A DNA stretch of 64,000 nt from contig JARXKL010000001.1 in the NCBI GenBank assembly GCA_030272735.1, positions 1 to 64,000 of the forward strand. The letters are read 5' to 3'. The stretch comes from Patescibacteria group bacterium (GTDB lineage: Bacteria; Patescibacteriota; Saccharimonadia; Saccharimonadales; UBA4665). Position numbers and translations under genes: made by a program. This document shows positions 8,658 to 42,084 of this stretch, piece by piece. The notes under the pieces are model-generated. The model saw only the letters and a program-made list of their open reading frames with translations. It was not told where the DNA came from and did not search any database. Position 1 is the first letter of the stretch, and every line of letters begins with the position of its first letter.

Positions 8658-8732
8658 GGCCTCATCGTCTAACGGTTAGGACACCAGGTTCTCATCCTGG
8701 CAATCGGAGTTCGATTCTCCGTGAGGTCACCA
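8658..8732 (+). tRNA. tRNA-Glu (CTC)
   Basis: A 75-nt cloverleaf: acceptor GGCCTCA with TGAGGTC, anticodon stem CCAGG/CCTGG enclosing TTCTCAT with anticodon CTC, T-arm CGGAG/CTCCG, discriminator A and encoded CCA at 8730-8732. The CTC isoacceptor reads GAG. Confidence 0.95.
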
Positions 8733-8769
8733 AGTAAAAAGCTCTCCGCACGGAGGGCTTTTTACTTGG
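8730..8769 (+). terminator. tRNA-Glu terminator, stem starting at the encoded CCA
   Basis: 8730-8748 and 8751-8769 form a 19-bp stem (one G-T pair) with a CA loop. The stem begins with the tRNA's own CCA, whose complement TGG ends the right arm. T-rich and A-rich stretches lie within the arms, so it should work in both directions. Confidence 0.8.
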
Positions 8770-8785
8770 GTAATGTCGCGAGATG

Positions 8786-8886
8786 CGAACTCCAGCAGCG
8801 CTAGCTGCGAGTTCGTTCATGAGGAGCTCACGCAGGTGCTCGCACCGAGTAAGTGACGAAATGCTGTCTACTCCGTGAGGTCACCA
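8786..8886 (+). repeat. tRNA-Glu downstream unit: inverted and direct copies of the tRNA 3' half
   Basis: CGAACTCC 8786-8793 is the inverted T-arm half of tRNA-Glu (GGAGTTCG 8706-8713). GAGTTCG 8809-8815 repeats it directly. A core at 8820-8835 (GAGGA ... ACGCAG) and hairpin GTGC/GCAC 8836-8845 follow. CTCCGTGAGGTCACCA at 8871-8886 is an exact 16-nt copy of the tRNA end (8717-8732). Confidence 0.7.
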
Positions 8887-21871: not shown

Positions 21872-21958
21872 GGGCGAGTGGTGGAATTGGTAGACACGCT
21901 AGACTCAAAATCTTGTGAGCTTTCGCTCGTGGGGGTTCAAGTCCCCCCTCGCCCACCA
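21872..21958 (+). tRNA. tRNA-Leu (CAA)
   Basis: An 87-nt class II tRNA: acceptor GGGCGAG/CTCGCCC, anticodon loop CTCAAAA with CAA, variable arm GTGAGC/GCTCGT, T-arm GGGGG/CCCCC, discriminator A and encoded CCA (21956-21958). The anticodon stem has one U-U mismatch. Confidence 0.94.
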
Positions 21959-21997
21959 AACAGAAAAGCACCCCACTGCGGGTGCTTTTCTGTTTGG
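21956..21997 (+). terminator. tRNA-Leu terminator, stem starting at the encoded CCA
   Basis: 21956-21973 pairs perfectly with 21980-21997 (18 bp, 6-nt loop). As at tRNA-Glu, the first three paired bases are the tRNA's CCA, and the right arm ends in TGG. Confidence 0.8.
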
Positions 21998-22000
21998 TTT

Positions 22001-22154
22001 GCTGGGACTCGAACCCCAGAGAGCAAACACAGTTTGCGGAGGGGGTTCGTGAAGCGAGGACACGCGCAGAACCGAGTGTACGCTAAAGTGTACTCTCGGT
22101 TAGAGCATGCCGGAGCGGAAAAGGCCGCAGGCCGCTAGTCCCCCCTCGCCCACC
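22001..22154 (+). repeat. tRNA-Leu downstream unit: inverted and direct copies of the tRNA 3' half
   Basis: 22004-22017 is an inverted copy of the T-arm 21932-21945 (13 of 14 identical). GGGGGTTC 22041-22048 repeats the T-arm 5' half directly. The core CGAGGACACGCGCAG is at 22055-22069. AACCGAG/CTCGGTT 22070-22101 forms a hairpin. AGTCCCCCCTCGCCCACC at 22137-22154 is an exact 18-nt copy of the tRNA end (21940-21957). The unit thus looks like a second tRNA 3' half interrupted in the T-loop. Confidence 0.75.
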
Positions 22155-41832: not shown

Positions 41833-41969
41833 TGATGATACCGGGCTGCGTCAGCTGGGTCGGCTGCGCCTCTTCCACTGCGGCGTGCTCGGAGCAAGCT
41901 CCTGCGCGCGTCCTCGTTGCACCGAACCAGCCGCTCGCTGTGCTCGCTCTTCTGGTTCGGGCCAGCTTG
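41833..41969 (-). repeat. tRNA-Asn downstream unit: degenerate copies of the tRNA 3' half
   Basis: Read on the minus strand, away from tRNA-Asn: an inverted T-arm copy (plus 41952-41969), a direct T-arm half (9 identical bases, 41923-41931 versus 42029-42037), the core CGAGGACGCGCGCAG (41902-41916, 14 of 15 identical to the Leu unit), hairpin GGAGC/GCTCC (41891-41902), and a copy of the tRNA end at 41833-41849 (14 of 17 matching 42010-42026). Confidence 0.65.
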
Positions 41970-41971
41970 AA

Positions 41972-42011
41972 CAAAATAAAACGACCTGCGATCGCAGGTC
42001 GTTTTATTTTG
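41972..42011 (-). terminator. tRNA-Asn terminator, 40-bp perfect palindrome
   Basis: 41972-42011 is a perfect palindrome of 20 bp per arm with A/T-rich outer ends, suited to termination in both directions. It starts within the encoded CCA of tRNA-Asn (the C and A pair with the TG at the far end). Confidence 0.8.
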
Positions 42012-42084
42012 GCTCCGGCAGCTGGGCTCGAACCAGCGACATCCTCGTTAACAGCGAGGCGCTCTACCACTGAGCTATGCCGGA
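42010..42084 (-). tRNA. tRNA-Asn (GTT)
   Basis: A 75-nt cloverleaf on the minus strand: acceptor TCCGGCA/TGCCGGA, anticodon stem CCTCG/CGAGG enclosing CTGTTAA with anticodon GTT, T-arm GCTGG/CCAGC, discriminator G and encoded CCA (42010-42012). Confidence 0.95.

Follow-up and report, generated by a model that had tools for sequence, protein, structure and literature searches.

The units that lie just downstream of tRNA genes in Saccharibacteria are a family of gene-less DNA elements of about 150-200 bases that occupy tRNA 3' ends. With a probability of about 0.72, we regard them as non-autonomous, site-specific mobile elements of tRNA genes that would be mobilised by a helper, like integron cassettes, through a tyrosine recombinase acting on a folded strand.

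Units in the window

The DNA analysed, called the window here, is a stretch of 64,000 nucleotides from a member of UBA4665 (Patescibacteriota, Saccharimonadales), positions 1-64,000 of the forward strand of contig JARXKL010000001.1 in assembly GCA_030272735.1. A common layout was found at tRNA-Leu, tRNA-Asn and tRNA-Glu: a palindromic flush terminator, an inverted copy of the tRNA 3' half (segment a), a direct T-arm copy (segment b), a folded core and a copy of the 3' half (segment c) (Table 1). Inspection of the tRNA-Ser locus in the window showed no such layout. A sequence-only reading of the window had described an inverted T-arm, a direct T-arm copy, a core at 22055-22069, a hairpin and an exact 18-nt copy of the tRNA end behind tRNA-Leu, and all of these features were found where it had placed them. 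The recurrence of the core that it reported at tRNA-Asn (14 of 15 bases, 41916-41902) also held, and the same layout is present at tRNA-Glu. A different contig holds the tRNA-Glu(TTC) unit, with which the tRNA-Glu(CTC) unit shares 88% identity over 222 nt that include the tRNA. The count of the core 15-mer in the window does not by itself exceed chance (2 matches vs 1.46 expected); the support for the units is positional and comparative.

Table 1. Positions of the three units, their parts and their target tRNA genes in the window.
Feature	Position	Strand	Basis
tRNA-Glu(CTC), third target	8658..8732	+	ARAGORN
tRNA-Glu(CTC) unit; c copy at 8871-8886	8768..8886	+	covariance model, 39.3 bits
tRNA-Leu(CAA), target gene	21872..21958	+	ARAGORN, Rfam RF00005
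Identity block of tRNA-Leu (tRNA positions 58-75)	21940-21957	+	
Palindromic terminator flush with the tRNA-Leu CCA (CCAAACAG...CTGTTTGG)	21956..21997	+	sequence
Leu segment a, decayed inverted tRNA 3' half; best part 22004-22017 (13/14)	22000..22019	+	sequence
Leu apical hairpin GCAAAC(ACA)GTTTGC, separating a from b	22023..22037	+	sequence, fold
Leu segment b, direct copy of the T-stem 5' half plus TTCG; pairs with a	22040..22049	+	sequence, fold
Direct T-arm copy GGGGGTTC in the Leu unit	22041-22048		
Covariance model match in the Leu unit	22043-22145		covariance model, 66.8 bits
Leu folded core: P2 stem, C.A mismatch, N-N' pair, GCA/GA internal loop, P3 hairpin	22055..22111	+	covariation
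Enlarged P3 hairpin of the Leu unit	22070-22101		
Leu P4 hairpin GGCC(GCA)GGCC, a C(GNA)G triloop	22123..22133	+	sequence
Leu segment c, displaced tRNA-Leu 3' half (positions 58-75), exact 18 nt	22137..22154	+	
tRNA-Asn unit; c copy at about 41859-41844, two mismatches	41844..41971	-	covariance model, 80.2 bits
tRNA-Asn(GTT), second target	42010..42084	-	ARAGORN

Distribution of the family

The exact core pattern is present in 13 of 40 relatives, at 21 loci, 20 of which are real units and nearly all of which lie just past a tRNA. The sequence-only reading had proposed a covariance model and a search of relatives with it; a model built from 21 units gave a positive result: 119 genomes of the order were sampled, and 44 of them contain units, with up to 23 per genome. 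The host genome itself holds nine units by this search, behind tRNAs Asn, Leu-CAA, Trp, His, Asp, Glu-CTC, Pro, Leu-CAG and Glu-TTC. Among 380 genomes spread over the phylum only seven carry units, and nearly all of these belong to the same class. The strict core was found in 40 stretches when 84,980 species were scanned; the named records are mostly Saccharibacteria, and one stretch (L108) is labelled Nomurabacteria. Two candidates, L012 and L072, were rejected as chance matches to the core. Literature searches found no description of such units.

At least two further core types share the same layout (L127, at tRNA-Val-TAC of genome G124; L085, L154, L196, L133 and L138). The direct repeat of L127 consists of the 3' half and the whole terminator, about 58 nt, and is exact.

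Matching to the tRNA and site of insertion

The copies within 90 non-redundant units adjoining an intact tRNA were compared with their own tRNA and with other tRNAs. A better fit to the own tRNA was found for the inverted T-arm half (p=3e-13), the inverted acceptor strand (p=3.5e-6), the direct T-arm half (p=4e-14) and the direct 3' half (p=3e-16). Three of the four control comparisons were null, and the fourth deviated in the opposite direction. The earlier observation that the T-arm copies match each local tRNA is thus confirmed over 90 units.

The first base of the displaced 3' copies corresponds to tRNA position 58 or 59 in units of core type 1 and to 55/56 in the second core type, and the copies mostly end at the CCA (position 76). 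The block from 58/59 to the CCA is the classical signature of T-loop integration by tyrosine-recombinase elements. The sequence-only reading had suggested that the second 3' half is interrupted inside the T-loop, which the start at 58/59 supports. Its suggestion that very small elements form a family directed at tRNA 3' ends gains support from the same start, from tandem stacking and from the filled and empty sites described below. At two tRNA-Met loci (L074:5400-5760 and L098:6240-6490) the core flanks match the anticodon loop and not the T-loop, and L098 holds a complete tRNA-Met inside a second, split tRNA-Met gene.

A flush palindrome follows 113 of 121 unit-bearing tRNAs vs 27 of 115 other tRNAs (p=1e-30). 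Because of the direct repeat, insertion on the terminator side and insertion in the T-loop are cyclic permutations of each other. The flush terminator travels with the units, which favours a package that includes the terminator, and insertion behind the terminator instead of in the T-loop is disfavoured.

In the mechanism that we propose, an element of about 150-200 bp, made up of a tRNA 3' half, the flush terminator, segments a and b and the folded core, would enter the T-loop of a tRNA gene. Insertion would bring in a new 3' half and terminator and push the old 3' half (segment c) downstream, and the tRNA would stay functional because the element supplies both parts anew. Repeated insertions would give rise to tandem arrays. 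The element would be mobilised in trans, and the tyrosine recombinase responsible, acting on a folded single strand (the a:b hairpin, P2-P3 and P4) as at an integron attC site, would most likely be the resident Xer.

Mobility and possible cargo

The units are considered mobile because they form tandem arrays, because an orthologous locus occurs both filled and empty, and because units at different tRNAs of the same genome are 96-98% identical. Three units stand in tandem behind tRNA-Gln of G046 and three behind a tRNA-Ser, and core types are mixed in tandem behind tRNAs Lys, Val and Pro. Three genomes of one genus differ in what lies between tRNA-Arg(CCT) and the gene that follows it, which from its sequence we take to be ndk: G083 and G046 have two units there, and G070 has an empty site. 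In G046, the first Ser-GCT unit is 98% identical to the Ser-GGA unit along a 198-nt match whose end is the CCA of segment c, and the second Ser-GCT unit is 96.5% identical to the first Ser-CGA unit over 228 nt, starting from position 60. The units at Leu-CAG and Leu-GAG of G034 are nearly identical. Recent copying of units between isoacceptor tRNAs is shown at the level of sequence. The units at tRNAs Asn, Thr and Tyr were probably inherited vertically; compared between relatives, the Asn units are 83% and the Thr units 89% identical. Units without an intact tRNA upstream occur at L044, L054 and L105. In another comparison, between two species within one genus (L017 of G034 and L047 of G065), a tRNA-Leu/tRNA-Val pair is inverted relative to the flanking genes.

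There seems to be cargo, in part antiviral defence genes, in a small number of larger arrays. On contig 33 of G460 (L248), the units at tRNA-Asn are separated by genes for Fic, an unassigned protein of 812 aa, an N6-methylase and an SMC-like ATPase, and a flank is repeated after three unit ends; G460, like G465, lies outside the class and may reflect contamination. Units in UBA5145 are spaced by membrane-protein genes, again with a repeated flank, and in G038 a NADAR gene lies between tRNA-Lys and the unit. At L108:1-8000 a perfect unit at tRNA-Met is followed by an M78 peptidase gene and a Thoeris ThsB-like TIR gene. These cases are few, and the genes near units could be ordinary neighbours.

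Core fold and type of hairpin

The core fold is backed by massive covariation. Over 101 distinct units, 89.6% of cells pair vs 70.5% in shuffled alignments, double-sided changes number 290 vs 100 in the shuffles, and the pairing support collapses once partners are slid, the slid controls being far lower. The core constantly shows a C.A mismatch, an N-N' pair that may be G-C, A-T or T-A, and a short hairpin with a GCA/GA internal loop beneath it. There is hardly any room left for an explanation without a shared element, in which the units would be chance resemblances or decayed tandem duplications of tRNA ends: some copies are indeed decayed (Asn) and the 15-mer is not significant in one window, but this explanation is refuted by the covariance model results, the matching to the own tRNA and the covariation.

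The terminators adjacent to the units act as RNA. The loops of the a:b and P4 hairpins comprise 44 C(GNA)G and 3 GNRA, whereas the terminators of the same loci have 1 C(GNA)G and 14 GNRA loops (Fisher p=3e-10); C(GNA)G accounts for 0.14% of the best hairpins in random window segments. The P3 loops are CTTG or TTTA (YTTR). G-T pairs make up 1.7% of pairs in P3 vs 7.8% in terminators (p=2e-6) and are also fewer in P3 than in tRNA acceptor stems (p=5e-4); the a:b and P4 hairpins contain 9-11%, an RNA-like level. GNA loops closed by C-G form exceptionally stable DNA mini-hairpins (PMC4686876). From the C(GNA)G and YTTR loops and the scarcity of G-T pairs in P3, both unlike the RNA terminators, we infer indirectly that the fold functions as single-stranded DNA. 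By generic DNA folding energies the two strands look alike (mean z -1.95 and -1.96).

The loop types also bear on the other possibility raised by the sequence-only reading, a conserved RNA pairing with its tRNA precursor. This RNA would be structured, be produced beside its tRNA and regulate how the precursor folds or is processed. Such an RNA would fit the strong covariation, the match of the copies to the local tRNA and the seemingly vertical inheritance of the Asn and Thr units. The units, however, lie behind a flush terminator in nearly all cases, are missing from most tRNAs and most genomes, form tandem arrays and persist beside lost tRNAs (the three loci named above). Their loops are C(GNA)G instead of GNRA, P3 is poor in G-T pairs, and Rfam returned tRNA and noise only, with no family match at gathering or relaxed thresholds. 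We therefore disfavour the RNA explanation and regard it as improbable.

Candidate enzymes

Only tyrosine recombinases are known to target tRNA genes (PMC4383910). A Xer-type tyrosine recombinase (PF00589) was detected in 24 of 24 genomes, with or without units, and is the sole one in most of them; ten more genomes agree on Xer, and a second tyrosine recombinase is present in G038 and G465. A recombinase gene linked to units, as suggested by the sequence-only reading, was searched for with PF00589 in the genomes checked, and none was found. Y1 transposases (9/24 genomes) do not track the presence of units, and Y1_Tnp is absent from the unit-bearing G000, G029, G026, G086 and G030. Neither reverse transcriptases (4/24 genomes, few of them unit-rich) nor serine recombinases (18/24 over the cut-off) track the units. 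The resident Xer is the leading candidate by elimination, although its equal presence in genomes without units counts against the link, and an absent helper enzyme is almost as likely. The T-loop break falls at 54/55 or 57/58 depending on the core type, so one enzyme may not explain all units.

In 20 of 24 Saccharimonadales genomes (L160-L183), whether or not they carry units, tRNA-Arg(CCT) and the xer gene are no more than about 2 kb apart.

That no enzyme tracks the units would also fit the same elements being moved by a lost enzyme, or one from a phage or plasmid, on double-stranded attP/attB sites, the fold then serving replication, packaging or protection. The identity block is typical of phage and island integrases with a T-loop crossover, for example that of Ms6 (PMC1762012). 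The strict core pattern, however, gave no match in 2.9 million viral contigs, and such an enzyme would need to work across many families and many different tRNAs. We give this explanation considerable weight, somewhat below even odds.

Segment a could alternatively result from a retroelement or snap-back process: synthesis primed at the terminator hairpin would run back into the tRNA 3' half and so produce a, and more switches of template would follow. This would account for a being a decayed inverted 3' half, including the acceptor strand, directly behind a palindrome, but it is very unlikely in view of the few genomes with reverse transcriptase domains, and the conserved core and the T-loop boundary are left unexplained by it.

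Comparison with known systems

We return to the reading of the units as helper-mobilised elements of tRNA genes. They resemble tRNA-targeting integrative elements and may work like integron cassettes, while falling outside the strict definition of either. Like islands, prophages and IMEs, they show a restored tRNA with a displaced 3' fragment, a shared identity block, a crossover in the T-loop (perhaps in the anticodon loop at two loci), tandem arrays, sporadic presence and empty orthologous sites. Unlike these, they measure about 150-200 bp, lack an integrase, leave no room for an ORF, and hold a palindromic terminator, an inverted tRNA copy and a conserved folded core. The Islander filter accepts lengths of 2-200 kb and rejects candidates that are under 2 kb or have no integrase (PMC4383910), so that such units would be missed. 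The micro-elements have apparently gone unnoticed because island searches discard short or integrase-less candidates, and an abundant class of them seems to have been overlooked in a large bacterial radiation.

The likeness to integron cassettes lies in the tandem arrangement, a structured end site that may correspond to attC, the low conservation of sequence with high conservation of structure, the cargo that a few arrays may carry and the position of a new unit next to the anchoring site. Unlike cassettes, the units are anchored at a tRNA gene and not at attI, their arms match the tRNA, and most have no ORF. On inspection of an alignment of units, GTTRRRY and RYYYAAC boxes are absent from the unit junctions (GGTTCG/GTGG and CGCTA/TCC). 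No integron integrase was found, and most unit-bearing genomes have no tyrosine recombinase besides the Xer-length protein. A full cassette system of the ultrasmall Saccharibacteria, in which tRNA genes would serve as the platform, the single host Xer would act on single-stranded DNA hairpins mimicking tRNA loops and the cassettes would be gene-less or carry defence genes, is a tentative extension of this analogy that we think rather doubtful.

REP/REPIN sequences with RAYT (HUH) are likewise short, gene-less, rich in hairpins and multi-copy; the units differ from them in being bound to tRNA 3' ends and in that a Y1_Tnp gene is missing in many unit-rich genomes. CTX-phi, which Xer integrates through a folded single-stranded attP, would share with the units the use of the host Xer and a hairpin substrate, but the target of the units is a tRNA loop and not dif, they have no phage genes, and no Xer-binding arms were identified.

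For direct tests, the unit family offers well-defined strains and sites as well as a covariance model. If the elements do move as folded DNA, this would suggest how genomes under 1 Mb gather defence genes. It would also provide a second natural setting for recombination of a folded single strand, beside integrons and CTX-phi-like phages, with arms that are matched to the tRNA.
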